From the NCBI GenBank assembly GCA_001460835.1, contig CYKH01001749.1, positions 3,578 to 34,203 on the forward strand: 30,626 nucleotides of DNA, in the 5' to 3' direction. A model generated the notes under the pieces. The model was not told the origin of the DNA, did no database searches, and worked only from the letters and a program-made list of their open reading frames with translations. Position numbers and translations under genes: made by a program. This stretch comes from Bodo saltans (taxonomy: Eukaryota; Euglenozoa; Kinetoplastea; Eubodonida; Bodonidae). Of the stretch, positions 13,296 through 30,549 are shown piece by piece (the stretch's first letter is position 1; each line of letters opens with the position of its first letter).

Positions 13296-14845
13296 ATGCT
13301 TCCTCGACAGGAAAGTTCTCGTCTGGTTGCGCCCCCTCCCATTGGGCAGCTTCTGGCGGATGATATCATGGCGCCTTTCCGCCACGTCGCGGCATTGGAG
13401 TCCAAACAGTTTCGTGGAGCACTAGTCGACGCGTTCGACGAGTGGCTGCACCTCCCACCAAGCGCTGCTGGTGAAGTCAAGGCTGTCGTGGAAATGCTCC
13501 ACAACGCATCGTTGATTGTGGACGACATTGAGGACAGCAGTAACCTCAGGCGCGGCGCTCGGGCAGCGCACCGAGTGTATGGGATGCCGTTGGCTCTCAA
13601 TGCAGCGAATACAGCGTACTTTGTGGCTCTCTCTCGACTCATGGGTGCATCGAGTGTTGTGACCACGGAGCTAGAGACAACAACGCAATCCTCCCGAGAG
13701 GACGATGATGCGCAGCGGCCCAAGCTTCATTCGTGGACGGATTGGGTGCGACGTTTAGATTTTTCCTTTGATGTGATTGCGGAGAATCATTTTTCCTTTG
13801 ATGTGATTGCGGAGCACTACCATCATGCAGCATCCTCCGGCACCAGCGCCACATCTTCATCGTTAACTCTAAAATTGTGTGAGATCTTCAGCCACGAGAT
13901 GATTGAGCTTCATCATGGCCAGGGGTTGGATATCTACTGGAGAGACATGGTGCAATGCCCAACCTTAGAGGAGTACGACGAAATGGTGCTGAAGAAAACA
14001 GGAGGGCTGTTCCGACTCGCGATTCGGTTTATGATTGCGCTTAGCCCTCTGCCAGCATGCATGAAGGAGGGGGAGGAGGATGCAAGTGACAGCAAGGCTG
14101 ATCATGTGAGGAAGGTGGGAGAGTTATTCGCCGCGTTGATTCCACTCGTGAATGACATTGGTGTATTCTTCCAAACACTGGATGACTATCTCAACGTGTG
14201 CAACGAGGACTACCACAAGAATAAGTCATACTGCGAAGATTTGACGGAAGGAAAGTTTTCGTACCCAGTCATTCACTGCCTTCATCATCAAGCGACCCGT
14301 GGTGATAAGACGCTCATGCACATACTTCGTCAGAGGCCGACGGACCACGAGGTCAAACGCTACTGCGTGGACATGATGCGCCAGGCTGGGAGTTTGGAAG
14401 CGTGCAAGCAACGAATCAATGTTCTTCACGCATCGATCATGAATCGCATTCAAGGGATTCATTACCGAGTGTCTACACTTTACGAAAATTCAGAAATGCC
14501 GCCTGCTGNNNNNNNNNNNNNNNNNNNNNNNNNNNNNNNNNNNNNNNNNNNNNNNNNNNNNNNNNNNNNNNNNNNNNNNNNNNNNNNNNNNNNNNNNNNN
14601 NNNNNNNNNNNNNNNNNNNNNNNNNNNNNNNNNNNNNNNNNNNNNNNNNNNNNNNNNNNNNNNNNNNNNNNNNNNNNNNNNNNNNNNNNNNNNNNNNNNN
14701 NNNNNNNNNNNNNNNNNNNNNNNNNNNNNNNNNNNNNNNNNNNNNNNNNNNNNNNNNNNNNNNNNNNNNNNNNNNNNNNNNNNNNNNNNNNNNNNNNNNN
14801 NNNNNNNNGATTGCGTGCATTGATAGAATGATGAAAATGGTTTGA
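13296..14845 (+). CDS. GGPS1: Geranylgeranyl diphosphate synthase (C-terminus interrupted by a gap)
   Basis: This trans-prenyltransferase makes geranylgeranyl diphosphate from farnesyl diphosphate and isopentenyl diphosphate, for protein prenylation and long-chain isoprenoids. It follows the animal/fungal GGPP synthase closely: MLHNASLIVDDIED with the first Asp-rich motif at residues 76-80, HGQGLDIYWRD, KKTGGLF, the second Asp motif DDYLN at 296-300, then KSYCEDLTEGKFSYP. An insert of about 65 residues sits between helix blocks at roughly residues 118-190 and contains a 30-base tandem duplication. After residue 404 the sequence enters 300 Ns. The frame that continues the ORF gives a short odd tail, but another frame gives IACIDRMMKMV ending at 14845, which resembles the end of human GGPPS, so I take that stop. 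The gap length must then be 1 modulo 3, not 300. Confidence 0.85.
13759..13820 (+). repeat. 30-base in-frame tandem duplication inside GGPP synthase
   Basis: The two units start at 13759 and 13789. Their first 26 bases are identical (13759-13784 and 13789-13814) and the last few differ. The product reads FSFDVIAENH followed by FSFDVIAEHY. It lies in the lineage-specific insert, not in the catalytic core. Confidence 0.9.
14509..14808. other. Assembly gap of exactly 300 Ns
   Basis: A run of N from 14509 to 14808. The round length suggests a scaffolding placeholder, not a measured distance. It falls in the last dozen codons of the GGPP synthase gene. Confidence 0.98.
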
Positions 14846-16940: not shown

Positions 16941-17984
16941 ATGCTGATGCTGACCACAGACAAAGCCAAATCACCCACATCAAAAGGAGAGGAGGAGCCG
17001 CCGCATCCAACGAATGCAGCAGAGGCAGCAAACACTGCTCTCCTCTCCCTCGATGAAACGGAAAGGCTCGATGCCCCACCCGTGCCGTGGATGCATGGTG
17101 CCGCGGGCATCCTAGGAGGCTCCATTTCAATGACGCTCTTCTACCCTTTAGACTTTTTACGCACGAGGATGCACACGTACGACGATAGCAAGAAGCACAA
17201 GCCGCTCGACGACTTTCGGAGCGTCCTCAAGCAAGAGGGCATTCGCGGGATGTACAAAGGTGTCAAGGTGGCCGTCGCTGCGCATAGTATCGGGTGGGGG
17301 TTGTACTTGACGTTCTTCCGATTTGCACAGCAGAACATTGCCGCTTTCCGCGGGCATTCCTCGACGCTGGGAGATTTTCTTGGCGCATGTTGTGCAGCCA
17401 TCACCACGGCCACACTAGTGACCCCGCTTAATCTCGTCAAGACCCGCACTCAACTTTCCAAAGGGGTGATTCCAGAGTCAGAGAGAGGATTTCGGCGCAC
17501 CTTAGTCCACATTGCACGAACCGAAGGTTGGAGTGCGTTGTTTCGCGGCGTTGGGCCGCAAATTCTGCTGTCATCTCACACCTCCATTCAAGTGGCACTC
17601 TATGAATGTCTGAAGCGCTGGATGTGGGGTGACGGCACCGACGCACCAATGATGGGCATTGCTTTGGTGTCTGGTTTCTCGAAAGCAGTCGCTGCGAGCG
17701 CGTGCAATCCTCTCGAAGTCGTGCGAACACGGTTGCAAGACAAGAAGAATCGTGAGAAGGTAGAATATCAAAGTATGTCTAACGCGTTCAAGCACATTTG
17801 GAAGTACGAGGGAGTTCGAGGCATGTACCGCGGCATTGGTGTGAATGTGTGCAGGGTTGTGCCCACGACCATTTGTGCGTTTGTTCTGTACGAGCAGTGT
17901 TTGAGAGTGATCAAGATGATGCATGGGAACCGCCAGCACCAAGCTGCTGCTGCTGCGAGGCGCCAGCAACAATCTGCAAACTAG
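16941..17984 (+). CDS. Mitochondrial carrier, SLC25A32/Flx1 (FAD/folate/NAD)-like
   Basis: This second SLC25 carrier has 347 residues. The three matrix motifs are PLDFLR (from residue 69), PLNLVK (162) and PLEVVR (257). The closest resemblance I see is to SLC25A32/Flx1 and related pyrimidine, NAD, folate or FAD carriers: SIGWGLYLTFF matches the family's LSWGLYFFFY after repeat 1, SHTSIQVALYE matches SHGALQFMAYE after repeat 2, and FSKAVAASACNPLEVVRTRLQD matches the third repeat. The substrate is therefore likely a nucleotide cofactor or folate, but it is not proved. A charged, probably disordered N-terminus (about 45 residues) and a Q/A-rich C-terminus flank the core. The first in-frame ATG is 16941, with 16947 next. 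Confidence 0.85.
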   Translation: MLMLTTDKAKSPTSKGEEEPPHPTNAAEAANTALLSLDETERLDAPPVPWMHGAAGILGGSISMTLFYPLDFLRTRMHTYDDSKKHKPLDDFRSVLKQEGIRGMYKGVKVAVAAHSIGWGLYLTFFRFAQQNIAAFRGHSSTLGDFLGACCAAITTATLVTPLNLVKTRTQLSKGVIPESERGFRRTLVHIARTEGWSALFRGVGPQILLSSHTSIQVALYECLKRWMWGDGTDAPMMGIALVSGFSKAVAASACNPLEVVRTRLQDKKNREKVEYQSMSNAFKHIWKYEGVRGMYRGIGVNVCRVVPTTICAFVLYEQCLRVIKMMHGNRQHQAAAAARRQQQSAN

Positions 17985-24347: not shown

Positions 24348-25301
24348 ATGGCCGGCATTCTCACTGCAAACCTAGTCCTCCAGAAGACAAAGTTGGACAA
24401 CCTCAAACACGTTCGAAAACTTAACGTTTGTGGCGTCCACGTCAGCGACATCAGCGTCTTACGCGATGCCAAGTACGTTGAAGTGCTGTCGCTGAGTGTG
24501 AACGAAATTCAAGATCTCGAGCCGCTGTCTGCCTGCAGCAATTTACGAGAAATCTACCTTAGAAAAAACGACATTAGTGATATTGCTCAAATCTTGCATC
24601 TATCTCGATTGCCTTTTCTCTCATCCCTCACGCTGAGTGATAATCCTGTTTCCGTGGATCCAAGCTACCGCAAGTTCTGCGTTGCAGCACTTCCGACGTT
24701 AGTGAAGTTCGATGATGTCGATGTCAGTCCGGCTGAACGTGCGGATGCAGAGAGAGCCTTCCCCGACCTTGCCTATGCAACCCCACCTGCTCCCCTAGCT
24801 CCGCTGTCATCATCAACGGCTATCTTTGGAACGCCGCCGCGCCCTTCAACAGGAGCAAGAGATCGTAACAACTACAGTCCACCCGCCGCTCGAGGCAGCA
24901 TCGCATACGACATGGACGATGGGCCTTCACAACACAACTCCAATCGCCGAGGAGGCGGCAATGCAGCGGTGTCTGCTGGTGGGGATAGACTCGCCCGTAA
25001 GTTTCAAGAGTTGTCTTCCCAGTACGACGAGATGCCCGTCGGTGGCAGCCGTAGCAGTGGCGCCGTCTCTGCTCGTGGGCCTCGGTCCACTCCAGCAGCA
25101 TTTCAACAAAACTATGTTGCTGCACCAGCAGTTGGCCACCAACCACCTGCCACAGCTCGTGTCAGCAGTTCTCATTCATCTTCACCAGTAGTAGGAGGGC
25201 CTCGTGAGGAGGGTGTTGTTGCCGCAATCAAGTTGCTTTTAGATGAGCTATCGCCCGCTGCACTACTGGAAGTTCGTCGCTACATCGATGCCACTCGCTA
25301 A
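24348..25301 (+). CDS. CFAP410: Cilia- and flagella-associated protein 410 (C21orf2 family)
   Basis: The 317-residue protein has the CFAP410 layout. The N-terminal leucine-rich repeat domain (residues 1-140) carries the family lines VRKLNVCGVHVSDIS, EVLSLSVNEIQDLEPLSAC and LREIYLRKNDI, ending in a cap with RKFCVAALPTLVKFDDVDV. A long disordered linker rich in P, S, G and R follows. A short C-terminal helical domain (about 287-317, VVAAIKLLLDELSPAALLEVRRYI) matches the small oligomerising C-terminal bundle known from CFAP410. The protein works at the basal body and in flagellum assembly or maintenance, with NEK1-type kinases as partners in animals. The ATG at 24348 is the first after the acceptor at 24288 and aligns with the family start. 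Confidence 0.9.
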   Translation: MAGILTANLVLQKTKLDNLKHVRKLNVCGVHVSDISVLRDAKYVEVLSLSVNEIQDLEPLSACSNLREIYLRKNDISDIAQILHLSRLPFLSSLTLSDNPVSVDPSYRKFCVAALPTLVKFDDVDVSPAERADAERAFPDLAYATPPAPLAPLSSSTAIFGTPPRPSTGARDRNNYSPPAARGSIAYDMDDGPSQHNSNRRGGGNAAVSAGGDRLARKFQELSSQYDEMPVGGSRSSGAVSARGPRSTPAAFQQNYVAAPAVGHQPPATARVSSSHSSSPVVGGPREEGVVAAIKLLLDELSPAALLEVRRYIDATR

Positions 25302-25549: not shown

Positions 25550-28500
25550 ATGTCGGCTCCGTTGATTGCAGTGTTTAGCGGGACCACACTCGAACCAATT
25601 GAAGGTGGCGCCCTTCTTCTCTTCTCATCCGTCACTCAGAGTGCCATGATCATAATAGAGACGACGTTGGAGGCCCGACAATTCAACAGTGCGGTGACGT
25701 TTGACATCAAGGTGACCCACCCCACTCATGTGCTTCCCACTCCAAGAGAAGGTGTGTTGAGGCAAGGCCTGAACCAAATCGAGGTCCACGTCAAGCTGCT
25801 GGAGCTGGAATCACTGGATACTGCTGAATTGGCGGCATCGCCTATTCGCCTCATGATTAGCGCAACTTGCTCAGAGCCGCATTTGAGTCACAAGACGAAA
25901 TTAATTTGTGATTCCGCAAGTGTGCAGCAATGCGCTGCCGCCGCCGCTGCTGCCTCAAAAAAGAATTCTCAGCGCTCCACAAGCTCAAAACCAACGTCAC
26001 GATCTTCAACGCCGTCGACTCCCACGCCGCATCTTCGTGACGATGTTGTGTCGCGTCGACAAAGTGGCCATAACGCTCGTGCACTGCCCTCAACGCAGCA
26101 GCATCATCAAGATCCATCTCATTCCATTGGAGCATTGAAGGTACCCGCCCAATCAACGTCAGCTGTTGGACTGTTTTCAATTCTGATGAAGTTAAAGGAA
26201 CTCCGCGTTTCGACTGCGCATGCGCTGGCTTTGTTTCCTCAAGGAACCATGTGCTGTGTGCAATGGAAGCGTGGCACGGAATACGGCAACACGCAGTGGC
26301 GCACGATGATAATTGGTAGCGGTCACCAACCCACTTTCAAGGGAGAGAGTGACGAGGTGTGCTGTTGTTCGTTTGAGTCTGAGGAGATCATCATTCCTAG
26401 GTGTGAGCCGTCACCGGATGGCAAGAGAATACTTTTAAGTCTTGGGCTGGCATTCACGAATCCGTCACCAAATAACGGAGCACCTGCCACCAGTATTCGC
26501 GGGACGCTTAAGCTTGATGCGTCGTTGCCCAGAGAGATGGACTTTGGGGACACACTATTTCCAGTTGCGATCGATGGCAATGCAGGTGCAGCGACGCTTG
26601 TGGCAAGTCTCTTGATGACACCCATCAAACAACAAGAATCACTCGAGAAATCCACCAAGCGCTCAACCACGTCAACGCCGACGACGTCAGCACCCTCAAC
26701 ACCCCCACCCCAGCAGTCCGCGGCACCAGCAGCACCACGGAGTTCCATTGTGCAGTCGCCTCCCCCTTCCCAAGTGGCGAATTTAGCAACGTCGTCGTCT
26801 TCCACATCGCTCACACCACCACCCCCTGTGATGGTTGGGGGAATGACGGGCAGCATTGCTCGATCTGCTACTGCCCACAGCTTGAACAACTTAAACAATG
26901 CTCGCTCGCAACTGGAGACATTGGACTCAACCCTACGCTCTGGTGGGGGCGGCGGTGGTGGTGCCTTGTCCCCGTCGGCCTTGGGAAGTCCATCGTCCGC
27001 CGCTGAGGCATCCCCGCTCCACGCCCTCAACGCATCGATGCGTATGGCAACGCCAACGAACGCAGGAGATGTATCCACAAACCCTCTCCGCTCGTTTGAG
27101 CGCCAGATGCCCAAGTCCAGCAACGTGCAAGTTGCGGTGCGAATTCGGCCGCGATTGCCCTTCGAGGCGGCCTATCAGTCGGAGGAAGCGTGGTCGCATA
27201 ACGACAATTCAATCACTGCCGCTTCCAATGATCGACAGTATCAATTCGACTATGTCTTCTCCCCTAGCACCAGCACAAGAAAAGTCTTTGATACGTTGTG
27301 CCCTGAGCTGATTGAGAATGCATTGTTCGGTGTGAATGGAACGATCTTCATGTACGGGCAAACAGCAAGCGGGAAGACACACACAATGTTTGGCAGTGAG
27401 CAGGAGATGGGAATCACGCCGTTGGTAATCGGGGCGTTGTTCCGGGAAATTGAAGCGAAGCGTAAAGAGCATCCTGGGATGGAGGCGCTGGTCACGGCTA
27501 GTTACTTTGAGATCTACAATGAAGAACTGAACGATTTGCTGGACCTTTCCAAGAAGAACCTTCAAGTACGGAGCGGCAGCGACGGAGGGTTCATCGTTGA
27601 TGTCAGCGGCGTGGGTGTTCGTACAGTGGACGAGGCAATGCAAGTGCTTGTGCACGGCTCTTACAATAAGAAGATGGGGCAGAGTCACCTCAATGATCGA
27701 AGCAGTCGTTCCCATTCAATCTTTAAGGTGATTGTGGAAGTGACTGGTATCGAGTTGACTGCTACGTCACATGCAACCACCAAGTCGCGTACCAAGTCTC
27801 AGAAAACGACAGCCGAGTTATGTTTGGTGGATCTTGCGGGGTCTGAAACCCTGCAAGAAAAAAGTGGCAGCTCTCAACGAAAGGAAACCACGAACATCAA
27901 CCTTTCACTGACGTACCTAAAGAAGGTGATTTGGGAACTTGCTCACAAAGAGCGTCACGTCTCTTACCGCAATAGTGCCCTCACGAAGGTTCTCAAGCAA
28001 GCGGTAGGTGGCAACTCACGCACTTGTGTCGTGTGCTGCATCACGGCCTCTCCAGAGCACTTTCGTGATTCCCGCAACACGCTGGCCTTTGGTACCACGG
28101 CGAAGTCTGTTGTGACGACTACAAAAGTCAATACAAGCGCGAGCCCCGCGGCAGACGCTGCTGAAGTCAAGCGCCTTCAGACAGAGCTGCAACGGTTGCA
28201 CACGATCATCGAGGCGTATGAGTCGACAGTGCACGCCTACGTTGTGATGGAAGACGACTTTAGAAAGGTATTAGAAGAGAATGGTACCATGGCTGACCGC
28301 ATTGATGCGCTTGAGGTGGAAAAGGTCACGCTCACCGAAGCGATTGCCAACCAACGCAACTCGACCTCGATGTCTGTTGTCGATGGCGTTGAAAGTGGTG
28401 CCGTGAGTGTTGCGACTCCTATTGCAGCTGGGGAATCGGTATCGAAACGATTCACAATGCCTAACGCAGTGCTGCGTGCCAACGCAGAGGAACATGCGGC

Positions 28501-29839
28501 GCTTCTCGAGGAGGCTATTTCTCGGCTGAATGAAGTCGCTGTCTCCGAGCCAGATACCTCACGCACCCCCACAGATGCTGCGGTTGTGTCTTATGAGGAA
28601 GGCACCCTTGATGAAGATGACGACATGTTCGATGAAGTCGATGATGACAGTCCGGCCGAGCAGCAGCGGGGGCGACGAGCTTCCGCAGCCCAGTCACCAA
28701 CACCAGGCATCCAACGACCAGCTGCTCCCCGCGTACGGCCTCCGCCGACAAAAAATAGACCTGTTGGCGGCATCACTGCTACTCGACCTCTCACCGCTCC
28801 CCGCACTGTGGAGAGTTTGCAGCTACAGTTGATCCAGCAAACCATCGACCACCGCCATGAGCTGCTGAAAAAGGATCAAGAAATCGAGCGGATTCACGCG
28901 CTACAAGTACGGCCTTCTGATGAAATCCCCGAGATCATGAAGAAAGAAGAAAAAGTCTGCGTCCTTCTTGACCAGCTCCACAGTTTTCTGCATCATGGCA
29001 CACCGATGCGACTCGTCTACACCGGCGACACGCAAATGTCCTCCACAGTTGACGTCAACTGGTCGGGTGCTAGTTTGCCTCGCACGGCCCCACGGATTGC
29101 TCGAGTGTTCATGTACCTTTACACATACCACCAAAAGGAAACATTTTTGTGCTTCTGCCTCGTGGATGCTGAGGGTAAATTACCGAAGCGCAGCTCCTGC
29201 TTCGAGAAGATTCTCATCAAGGACATCAAGCGCATTGAATTGGGGCAATACAGTGATTCCTTTGACAAGCTGAGGACTTGGAGTTCCAGCAACCCACCTG
29301 CTGCCAACAGCAGCACCTCGCCCACCACCACAGACTGGAATGCACCGCCAGCCTCAACCACTGCAGCCCTTGAGGCACATAAAAGCCTTTGCAAAGAAAC
29401 GTTGGACCGCAGAAGGATGTCGTTCACTGTAGTCGTGAAAAAAGGGAAGCAATTCGAGTGCGTCTGCGAAGACGAGGCGGATTTTGAGGCGTGGGTCATT
29501 GAGTTGAACAGACTACTGGGTACTTCCGCAGAATGGAAGAATCCGTTAGAAATTTCCAACATGGAGTTTTACGAAGTACTCGATGAGCAAGAACGACAAT
29601 TTTGCTCCACCATGCACATTCATCCAGATGAGTTCATGCGTGCGAAGCAGAAGATGTTGAGAAGAAAAGAAAAGTTTGTCACACTTTTTGACGTGAGGGC
29701 ACTTGCCCAGTTCGACTTGTACCACTCACAGCGTTTTTTCTACTTCTTGCGATGCCAAGGATGGGTGTCACAGGCAGCCCTGTTTTACCTGACCGACAAA
29801 TTTATCGAATCTGCACAGCCAAATTTAGACGACCTTTGA
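25550..29839 (+). CDS. Kinesin with MSP-like, NT-C2-like, PH-like and SWIRM-like domains
   Basis: The 1429-residue motor protein carries a central kinesin head at about residues 522-857. The P-loop is GQTASGKT (603-610, A replacing the usual G), switch I NDRSSRSH (715-722), switch II DLAGSE (761-766), then NINLSLTYLKKVIWEL and a YRNSALTKVL block; all nucleotide-binding residues are present, so it should be active. Before it are an MSP-like beta domain (about 1-110, VTFDIKVTHP...REGVL), an NT-C2-like domain (about 205-357, CCVQWKRG) and long P/S/T-rich linkers. After it come a short coiled coil (about 870-935), a disordered acidic region, a PH-like domain (about 1145-1325, ending FEAWVIELNRLLG) and a C-terminal segment like SWIRM (about 1343-1410, LDEQERQFCSTMHIHP...CQGWVSQ). 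The motor is internal, not N-terminal. Subfamily is not assigned; kinesin-7-like features are only suggestive. Side-domain calls are by eye. Confidence 0.9.
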   Translation: MSAPLIAVFSGTTLEPIEGGALLLFSSVTQSAMIIIETTLEARQFNSAVTFDIKVTHPTHVLPTPREGVLRQGLNQIEVHVKLLELESLDTAELAASPIRLMISATCSEPHLSHKTKLICDSASVQQCAAAAAAASKKNSQRSTSSKPTSRSSTPSTPTPHLRDDVVSRRQSGHNARALPSTQQHHQDPSHSIGALKVPAQSTSAVGLFSILMKLKELRVSTAHALALFPQGTMCCVQWKRGTEYGNTQWRTMIIGSGHQPTFKGESDEVCCCSFESEEIIIPRCEPSPDGKRILLSLGLAFTNPSPNNGAPATSIRGTLKLDASLPREMDFGDTLFPVAIDGNAGAATLVASLLMTPIKQQESLEKSTKRSTTSTPTTSAPSTPPPQQSAAPAAPRSSIVQSPPPSQVANLATSSSSTSLTPPPPVMVGGMTGSIARSATAHSLNNLNNARSQLETLDSTLRSGGGGGGGALSPSALGSPSSAAEASPLHALNASMRMATPTNAGDVSTNPLRSFERQMPKSSNVQVAVRIRPRLPFEAAYQSEEAWSHNDNSITAASNDRQYQFDYVFSPSTSTRKVFDTLCPELIENALFGVNGTIFMYGQTASGKTHTMFGSEQEMGITPLVIGALFREIEAKRKEHPGMEALVTASYFEIYNEELNDLLDLSKKNLQVRSGSDGGFIVDVSGVGVRTVDEAMQVLVHGSYNKKMGQSHLNDRSSRSHSIFKVIVEVTGIELTATSHATTKSRTKSQKTTAELCLVDLAGSETLQEKSGSSQRKETTNINLSLTYLKKVIWELAHKERHVSYRNSALTKVLKQAVGGNSRTCVVCCITASPEHFRDSRNTLAFGTTAKSVVTTTKVNTSASPAADAAEVKRLQTELQRLHTIIEAYESTVHAYVVMEDDFRKVLEENGTMADRIDALEVEKVTLTEAIANQRNSTSMSVVDGVESGAVSVATPIAAGESVSKRFTMPNAVLRANAEEHAALLEEAISRLNEVAVSEPDTSRTPTDAAVVSYEEGTLDEDDDMFDEVDDDSPAEQQRGRRASAAQSPTPGIQRPAAPRVRPPPTKNRPVGGITATRPLTAPRTVESLQLQLIQQTIDHRHELLKKDQEIERIHALQVRPSDEIPEIMKKEEKVCVLLDQLHSFLHHGTPMRLVYTGDTQMSSTVDVNWSGASLPRTAPRIARVFMYLYTYHQKETFLCFCLVDAEGKLPKRSSCFEKILIKDIKRIELGQYSDSFDKLRTWSSSNPPAANSSTSPTTTDWNAPPASTTAALEAHKSLCKETLDRRRMSFTVVVKKGKQFECVCEDEADFEAWVIELNRLLGTSAEWKNPLEISNMEFYEVLDEQERQFCSTMHIHPDEFMRAKQKMLRRKEKFVTLFDVRALAQFDLYHSQRFFYFLRCQGWVSQAALFYLTDKFIESAQPNLDDL

Positions 29840-30010: not shown

Positions 30011-30549
30011 ATGGTTCGCGCTGGCATGAAGGGAAAGGTCCTGGGCAAGGAGAAGAAGCTCGCCCTCATCGCTGACCGCCAGAAGAAGGTCGAGGCTCGC
30101 CGCGCCAAGGATGACAAGCGCTGGAAGCGCGTGCTCGCCAAGATGAGCGAGGACAAGAAGAAGAAGTTCGCTGGCGTCGGCAACACGACCAAGAACTCCC
30201 GCGTCCGTGGCGCCACCCGCGCCTCCCTGCGCAAGCGCGAGGGCCGCAAGGCTGATGACGTCTCCTACGAAAGAAGCGCACCTTCCACAAGCGTGCCCCC
30301 CTCGCCGTCAAGAAGATCAAGAAGTTTGTCGCCAAGATGATGAAGACCACCGACAACCGCATTGACGCTTCCCTCAACACCTACTTGTGGCACAAGGGCG
30401 TGAAAGGCGTCCCCGGCCGCGTCCGCGTCCTTGTCCAGCGCAAGGTCGAGAACGTCGAGGGCTCCAAGCGCAAGCACTTCTACACCATCATCTCCAACGT
30501 CCCCGTTGCTTCCTTCAAGAAGCTGACCACCAAGGTCAACGCTCAGTAG
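30011..30549 (+). CDS. RPL31: 60S ribosomal protein eL31, frameshifted, with basic N-terminal extension
   Basis: eL31 sits near the exit tunnel of the large ribosomal subunit. The C-terminal two thirds (30271-30549) match it clearly: FHKRAPLAVKKIKKF, NRIDASLNTYLWHKGVKGVPGRVRVLVQRK, YTIISNVPVASFKKLTT. The N-terminal part (30011-30268) is a lysine/arginine-rich extension of about 85 residues, longer than in other eL31 proteins I know. The two parts are in different frames, joining near 30268-30271; the first frame alone would end at 30340. The family's first strand (VVTREYTIN-type) is largely absent at the junction, so a short deletion or misassembly of perhaps 26-29 bases is likely. Codons end almost always in C or G, as expected of a highly expressed gene, and both parts share this bias. 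Confidence 0.8.

Follow-up and report, generated by a model that had tools for sequence, protein, structure and literature searches.

A Bodo saltans kinesin with an internal motor and a PH–SWIRM-like tail belongs to a family of at least five proteins

Kinesins that join a motor to a C-terminal PH tail are familiar from Kinesin-3 proteins such as KIF1A/UNC-104, where the motor is N-terminal and is accompanied by an FHA domain, without MSP or SWIRM domains. Among kinetoplastids, TbPH1 of Trypanosoma brucei is reportedly the subject of Benz et al. 2022. The literature is cited here from excerpts, to which every statement attributed to it refers. TbPH1 is described as a kinesin-like protein with a PH domain that is found at the microtubule quartet (PMC13142502), and TFP122 of the same species as a protein of the transition fibres with a kinesin motor head and a C-terminal PH-like domain, whose RNAi knock-down leads to longer flagella (PMC11190437). 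The trypanosome kinesin set is expanded and most of it is of unknown function; KIN-E, an orphan kinetoplastid kinesin of T. brucei, has beta-sandwich targeting domains resembling m-calpain domain III (PMC5993322). The FAZ7 kinesins of Leishmania, in the 'Tryp2' family, are trypanosomatid-specific, and FAZ7B is targeted to the flagellar pocket region by its non-motor part (PMC8244899).

The gene described here lies in a stretch of 30,626 nucleotides of Bodo saltans DNA, which we refer to as the window. The genome looks kinetoplastid: this is supported by KMP-11, a kinetoplastid marker, in a search that took in 14 control genomes, and by a ribosomal protein match whose four listed entries are trypanosomatid; a spliced-leader pattern was looked for and not found. 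It is a single uninterrupted open reading frame, stop-free over 4.3 kb, whose ATG is the first in frame because an in-frame TAA stands four codons upstream (Table 1). As in KIF1A/UNC-104, a motor is combined with a C-terminal PH-like tail. The nearest published proteins, compared by description and not by sequence, are TbPH1 and TFP122. TbPH1 is likewise a kinetoplastid kinesin-like protein with a PH domain, and a relative of the window protein (C376, below) combines the PH–SWIRM tail with a motor that has decayed. The window protein itself differs in its internal motor, which is intact, and in additional regions at the N-terminus. TFP122 shares the kinesin motor and the C-terminal PH-like domain but the excerpt that describes it mentions no SWIRM, MSP or NT-C2 domain (PMC11190437). 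KIN-E differs in that its beta-sandwich domains are C-terminal to an N-terminal motor, with PH and SWIRM domains unmentioned in the excerpt (PMC5993322), and the FAZ7 kinesins in that the motor is near the N-terminus, with no such domain set mentioned in theirs (PMC8244899). The view of the initial annotation that no described kinesin has the whole domain set agrees with limited searches of the open-access literature, although kinesin-type PH proteins of T. brucei had already been described.

Table 1. Features of the kinesin gene, in window coordinates
Feature	Position	Strand	Evidence
Complete open reading frame (kinesin of 1,429 aa)	25550..29839	+	ORF, upstream TAA
MSP-like beta domain, residues ~1-110 (weak support)	25550..25879	+	hhalign; C141
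Possible NT-C2-like beta domain, residues ~205-345 (unconfirmed)	26162..26584	+	Pfam NT-C2 E 0.1-0.2
Kinesin motor domain, residues ~522-864	27113..28141	+	Pfam E 4.3e-87; PDB kinesins E 5.5e-53
P-loop GQTASGKT, residue 603	27356..27379	+	Motif reading
Switch I NDRSSRSH, residue 715	27692..27715	+	Motif reading
Switch II DLAGSE, residue 761	27830..27847	+	Motif reading
Post-motor stretch, coiled-coil-like by eye	28142..28354	+	Partly common to C141
PH-like domain, residues ~1138-1325	28961..29524	+	PH_12 match; leave-one-out profile
ADA2-type SWIRM-like domain, residues ~1332-1410	29543..29779	+	phmmer, profile A4, hhalign

The protein has the P-loop, switch I and switch II that define a kinesin motor domain, with the Pfam match covering residues 534-854 and PDB kinesins aligning from about residue 520. 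The intact internal motor read in the initial annotation is borne out by Pfam, PDB and the motifs, and from the motifs the motor would act as an ATPase. The seven families that Pfam lists for the whole protein at E up to 10 do not include FHA, a Kinesin-3 trait.

The tail that follows the motor is common to the window protein and at least four others encoded in the genome, designated C310, C376, C531 and C141; three of these are kinesins and the fourth, C376, has a decayed motor. Leave-one-out profiles were run on 24 proteins (the five with the tail and 19 other kinesins) out of 65 kinesin places. Within this set each tail was recovered by the profile of the other four at E-values from 5.2e-13 to 6e-35 (6.4e-31 for the window protein, residues 1213-1410), and none of the 19 other kinesins was recovered, the best E-value among them being 0.13. 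Searches at the BLAST level with the tails of the window protein, C310 and C376 gave mutual matches and also C531, but missed C141; the C141 tail matched itself alone in the genome, and a search with window residues 1-370 likewise returned the window protein and nothing else. One further weak match, C168 (E 0.02), has an internal stop and no long frame at that place and was dropped. In a tree of 23 motors C141 is the sister of the window motor with support 98/99, and the BLASTP alignment of the two proteins extends past the motor to window residue 917. The two branches that bear the tail and an intact motor stay apart in the unconstrained tree, although a single clade for them is not rejected (AU p 0.107).

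The first part of the tail resembles PH domains. Pfam PH_12 matches a window fragment at residues 1189-1324 with E 4.4e-4, scoring 21.1 bits where the cut-off is 27, and the whole protein with E 0.075; PDB matches of the region were not significant (GRK3, E 0.28). C376 exceeds the PH_12 cut-off both as a whole protein (27.9 bits) and as a fragment (35.7 bits), C310 passes the PH_31 and PH cut-offs as a fragment and not as a whole protein, and C531 and C141 stay below the Pfam PH-family cut-off. The earlier reading of a PH-like C-terminal region holds.

The regions before the motor are less clear. C141 has an MSP-type domain ahead of its own internal motor (Pfam MSP on the N-terminal fragment, E 2.8e-5, 24.4 bits against a cut-off of 25.9). 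In the window protein the resemblance to MSP is weak, and the domain is labelled MSP-like because the Pfam MSP cut-off is not reached. The MSP/VAP head proposed in the initial annotation stands in part: there is no Pfam MSP match to the whole protein or to the head, but the head does better than shuffled sequence and the sister gene carries the domain. With hhalign, comparing the head with a set of MSP sequences, C141 among them, gives a score of 20.9, which is reached by 1 of 200 shuffles and by none of 350 other segments; the score against VAPs alone is reached by none of 100 shuffles. The NT-C2 domain of the initial annotation stays a hint: its Pfam score of 11.8-12.7 bits falls short of the 25.2-bit cut-off, and a PDB search gave no match. 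NT-C2 is the only Pfam family proposed for that region.

It is conceivable that the motor and the PH–SWIRM tail are real while both N-terminal regions are unrelated segments, neither MSP nor NT-C2. In favour of this reading, the window head is absent from the eight genome matches to the MSP family; the hhalign probabilities are just 4 for the MSP set and 2 for VAPs; the heads of the window protein and C141 have no significant mutual match, 10 of 100 shuffles reaching the score; and single-sequence AlphaFold2 gives no usable fold for residues 1-121 (mean pLDDT 36.5) or 195-365 (37.1). The sole direct match of the head is a competing weak one to PPP1R21 (38-39 residues, E 0.03-0.1), which was set aside as an identity, being short and not significant. 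We nevertheless consider unrelated segments unlikely, if still deserving appreciable weight, since the MSP scores exceed those of shuffles and other segments at the expected place and C141 carries an N-terminal MSP. In the best explanation, the window gene lies in a branch with two known members, both of which carry an MSP-type beta domain ahead of an internal motor.

With moderate confidence we propose that the window gene encodes a kinesin that is linked to a membrane, works at the base of the flagellum and belongs to a small kinetoplastid PH–SWIRM family. The motor would walk on microtubules or hold them, and helical stretches after it may pair two chains. The PH-like and N-terminal beta domains could tie the protein to a membrane or a membrane-linked partner, and the SWIRM-like domain may serve as a protein-docking module. 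By analogy with TbPH1 and TFP122 the workplace is probably the flagellum base or its microtubules. More tentatively, a kinetoplastid-wide kinesin family that includes TbPH1 and TFP122 might have a PH–SWIRM tail whose SWIRM, of the ADA2 kind known from chromatin, was put to new use in docking at the base of the flagellum. One branch of it would have gained MSP, and perhaps C2, N-terminal to the motor as a link between microtubules and membrane. The tail, found in several kinesins of one kinetoplastid, offers a testable handle on motor targeting; it might explain proteins of the transition fibres and microtubule quartet of trypanosomes, and would be a case of a SWIRM-type domain in proteins other than those of chromatin.

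A nuclear workplace is improbable by comparison: the protein would be a chromosome- or spindle-linked kinesin, its ADA2-type SWIRM binding DNA or nucleosomes and its PH-like domain serving chromatin. SWIRM domains are, to our knowledge, otherwise known from nuclear proteins, and the match is specifically to ADA2, a nuclear coactivator and histone acetyltransferase subunit and not a motor; against this, MSP-like domains suggest partners at membranes or cilia. The kinetoplastid kinetochore proteins KKT17/18 have PH domains weakly similar to those of chromatin and membrane proteins (PMC8131943), which favours the nucleus, but the published kinesin-type PH proteins are placed at the microtubule quartet or transition fibres (PMC13142502, PMC11190437).

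Beside the proposed flagellar role, the SWIRM-like domain is itself the clearest of the domains flanking the motor, and the initial annotation was right to see it. In a phmmer search of the PDB the window tail matched the ADA2 SWIRM 2aqe with E 3.7e-5 over 78 residues; four of its five matches were ADA2 and the other was Rop (E 0.17). The ADA2 SWIRM entries that resemble the domain in sequence are 2aqe, 2cuj, 2elj and 9ynv. We write SWIRM-like, and not member, because the Pfam SWIRM cut-off is not reached. Whole-genome Pfam searches for SWIRM and NT-C2 gave no matches, with their controls silent too, and so say nothing about absence. That some generic fold, three-helix or winged-helix, came to resemble SWIRM here by convergence is quite improbable. 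None of the five tails reaches the Pfam cut-off for SWIRM or for Ada2b (the best relative, C310, has 18.5 bits for SWIRM against 28.6), the window and C531 tails match neither family at all, and the hhalign probability is just 34-48 for C310, C376 and C141. Against convergence, that probability is 96 for the window tail, reached by none of 100 shuffles, each of the five tails outscores all 100 of its own shuffles, and the four-row tail profile A4, run over 177,635 distinct PDB sequences, matches ADA2 SWIRMs alone up to an E-value of 1.

At the level of sequence, the window protein thus has a motor and a PH–SWIRM tail and belongs to a family of at least five, with a sister that bears MSP; it appears to be one of a small motor group, with membrane-contact, lipid-binding and chromatin-type parts, and not an accident of assembly. 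An assembly join of at least two genes, the outcome that would have undone the single gene of the initial annotation, might be suspected from the unusual domain set, the 300 undetermined bases at 14509-14808 and a ribosomal protein frame in the window that breaks after ~30.26 kb, but is very improbable given the length of stop-free frame and because C141, on a different contig, has a similar order of MSP-type head, internal motor and PH–SWIRM-like tail in one frame.

The motor of the window kinesin is internal, as proposed in the initial annotation: the Pfam Kinesin family covers residues 534–854 (E 4.3e-87), PDB kinesins align from about residue 520, and the nucleotide-binding motifs are intact (see table). 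With CENP-E (5.5e-53) and kinesin-1 (7.5e-53) as the best PDB matches, the motor is assigned to no particular kinesin family. An in-frame TAA lies four codons upstream of the ATG. A mis-joined assembly of two genes is an unlikely explanation of this architecture, since the frame is unbroken and a second kinesin of the same genome (C141) has, within a single frame on a different contig, a similar order of MSP-type head, internal motor and PH–SWIRM-like tail.

Features of the window kinesin, its neighbours and two related proteins of the genome
Feature	Position	Strand	Description
CFAP410-type leucine-rich-repeat protein	24348-25301		directly upstream of the kinesin; Pfam CFAP410_C 5.7e-19
Window kinesin	25550-29839	+	single unbroken ORF, 1,429 residues
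P-loop	kinesin residue 603		intact
Switch I	kinesin residue 715		intact
Switch II	kinesin residue 761		intact
Ribosomal protein frame	30011-30547		first 84 codons match four PDB sequences, E up to 1e-10
C141 kinesin	L028:1489-5256		MSP-type domain at the N-terminus; long inserts in the internal motor; PH–SWIRM-like tail
C376, PH–SWIRM protein	L017:1400-4324		decayed kinesin motor

For the C-terminal part, the PH-like and SWIRM-like readings hold up. Residues 1332–1410 match the SWIRM domain of ADA2 (E 3.7e-5); four of the five matches to this region are ADA2, the remaining one being Rop (E 0.17). A profile was built from four tails, namely those of the window kinesin, C141 and two further proteins of the genome, C310 and C376 (the tail of another, C531, was excluded for its long insert). 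Run against 177,635 distinct PDB sequences with an E limit of 1, it finds four matches, all of them ADA2. Aligned with three ADA2 fragments (hhalign), all five tails outscore 100 of 100 of their own shuffles, with probabilities of 96 (window), 87 (C531), 48 (C376), 36 (C310) and 34 (C141). With the Pfam families SWIRM and Ada2b, C310, C376 and C141 score below the cut-off, and the window and C531 tails have no matches. The PH-like part of the window kinesin reaches 21.1 bits with PH_12 against a cut-off of 27, and that of C531 is marginally below with PH_31 (28.8 against 29). C376 exceeds the cut-off both as a whole protein (27.9 bits) and as a fragment (35.7), C310 as a fragment only (PH_31 34.5, PH 25.4), and C141 is weak (E 0.019).

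Across the 934 contigs (29.3 Mb) of the source genome, 79 stretches match kinesin, counted as 65 places. The genome also has a match to the kinetoplastid marker KMP-11 (E 1.1e-51), which, together with the matches of the ribosomal protein frame in the window, makes a kinetoplastid the most likely source; a search for a spliced-leader pattern found none. Searching the genome with window residues 1131–1429 yielded C310, C531 and C376, and a weak match, C168, was dropped. C141, which single-sequence tail searches failed to pick up, was reached through the MSP search and then found to carry the tail. In a set of 24 proteins, leave-one-out PH–SWIRM profiles recover each omitted member (window 6.4e-31, C310 6e-35, C531 2.5e-21, C376 4e-30, C141 5.2e-13), and the best of 19 other kinesins, drawn from 20 fetched places with the stronger motor matches, reaches E 0.13. 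The family has at least five members, a lower bound because full sequences were not read for 41 of the 65 kinesin places.

A motor tree was built from 23 of the 65 places (window, C141, C310, C531 and 19 of the 20 fetched places, C673 being left out for want of a usable frame). In it the window and C141 motors are sisters (support 98/99), as are those of C531 and C310 (100/98); C141 forms a long branch. The AU test does not reject one clade for the four tailed motors (p 0.107), and the PH–SWIRM tail of these kinesins may therefore have arisen only once. C376 lacks the P-loop and switch motifs and resembles the motor profile only weakly (8.1 bits); judged by its sequence, it is a decayed motor bearing the same tail, and is perhaps similar to TbPH1 of T. 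brucei (Benz et al. 2022), a kinesin-like protein with a PH domain at the microtubule quartet, which PMC13142502 names as the PH protein there.

The N-terminal head is less clear. Pfam finds no MSP domain in the window kinesin, which is also absent from the eight genome matches to the MSP family. Compared with a profile of two VAP-type proteins of the genome and the C141 head, window residues 1–130 give a probability of 4, although their score is equalled by only 1 of 200 shuffles and by none of 350 other 130-residue segments from 24 proteins. With the VAPs as the only partners the probability is 2, and none of 100 shuffles equals the score; with just the C141 head, 10 of 100 shuffles equal it, and that comparison is not significant. 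Directly, the window head matches PPP1R21 alone, over a short stretch (E 0.03–0.1). The C141 head itself matches MSP at E 2.8e-5 as a fragment (24.4 bits, cut-off 25.9) and 5.2e-4 within the whole protein, its only PDB match being major sperm protein (E 0.24). The MSP-like reading of the window head is thus weakly supported. For residues 205–345, NT-C2 is the sole Pfam family proposed (E 0.1–0.2), a hint that they may form such a domain; a PDB search of them gave no match. AlphaFold2 models of the head regions from single sequences were not usable.

Among the open-access articles listed, titles and abstract beginnings reveal no evident kinesin with SWIRM, with a major sperm protein domain or with NT-C2. 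According to the parts of PMC11190437 consulted, TFP122 of T. brucei combines a kinesin motor head with a C-terminal PH-like domain and sits at the transition fibres, with a stronger signal on the old flagellum, and its knock-down leads to longer flagella. We infer that the window kinesin would act, probably at the flagellum base, as a motor whose chains pair through putative helical stretches, that the PH-like and N-terminal beta domains would tie it to a membrane or membrane-linked partner, and that the SWIRM-like domain would be its docking module. The same SWIRM-like domain points to the chief rival, a suggested nuclear or spindle role.

The gene immediately upstream of the kinesin encodes a protein of the CFAP410 type, a ciliary family, but neighbours in kinetoplastid gene arrays are not necessarily related in function. 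The PDB entries matched by the ribosomal protein frame, presumably from trypanosomatid ribosomes, are named L31 and have 169–188 residues. This frame, whose similarity was assessed over the first 84 residues, has stops at residues 110 and 111, perhaps through a sequencing or assembly flaw. Elsewhere in the window, 300 undetermined bases (14509–14808) fall within a frame at 13296–14831 that by eye resembles prenyl-diphosphate synthase, and frames 610–1710 and 16941–17984 resemble mitochondrial carrier proteins, likewise by eye.
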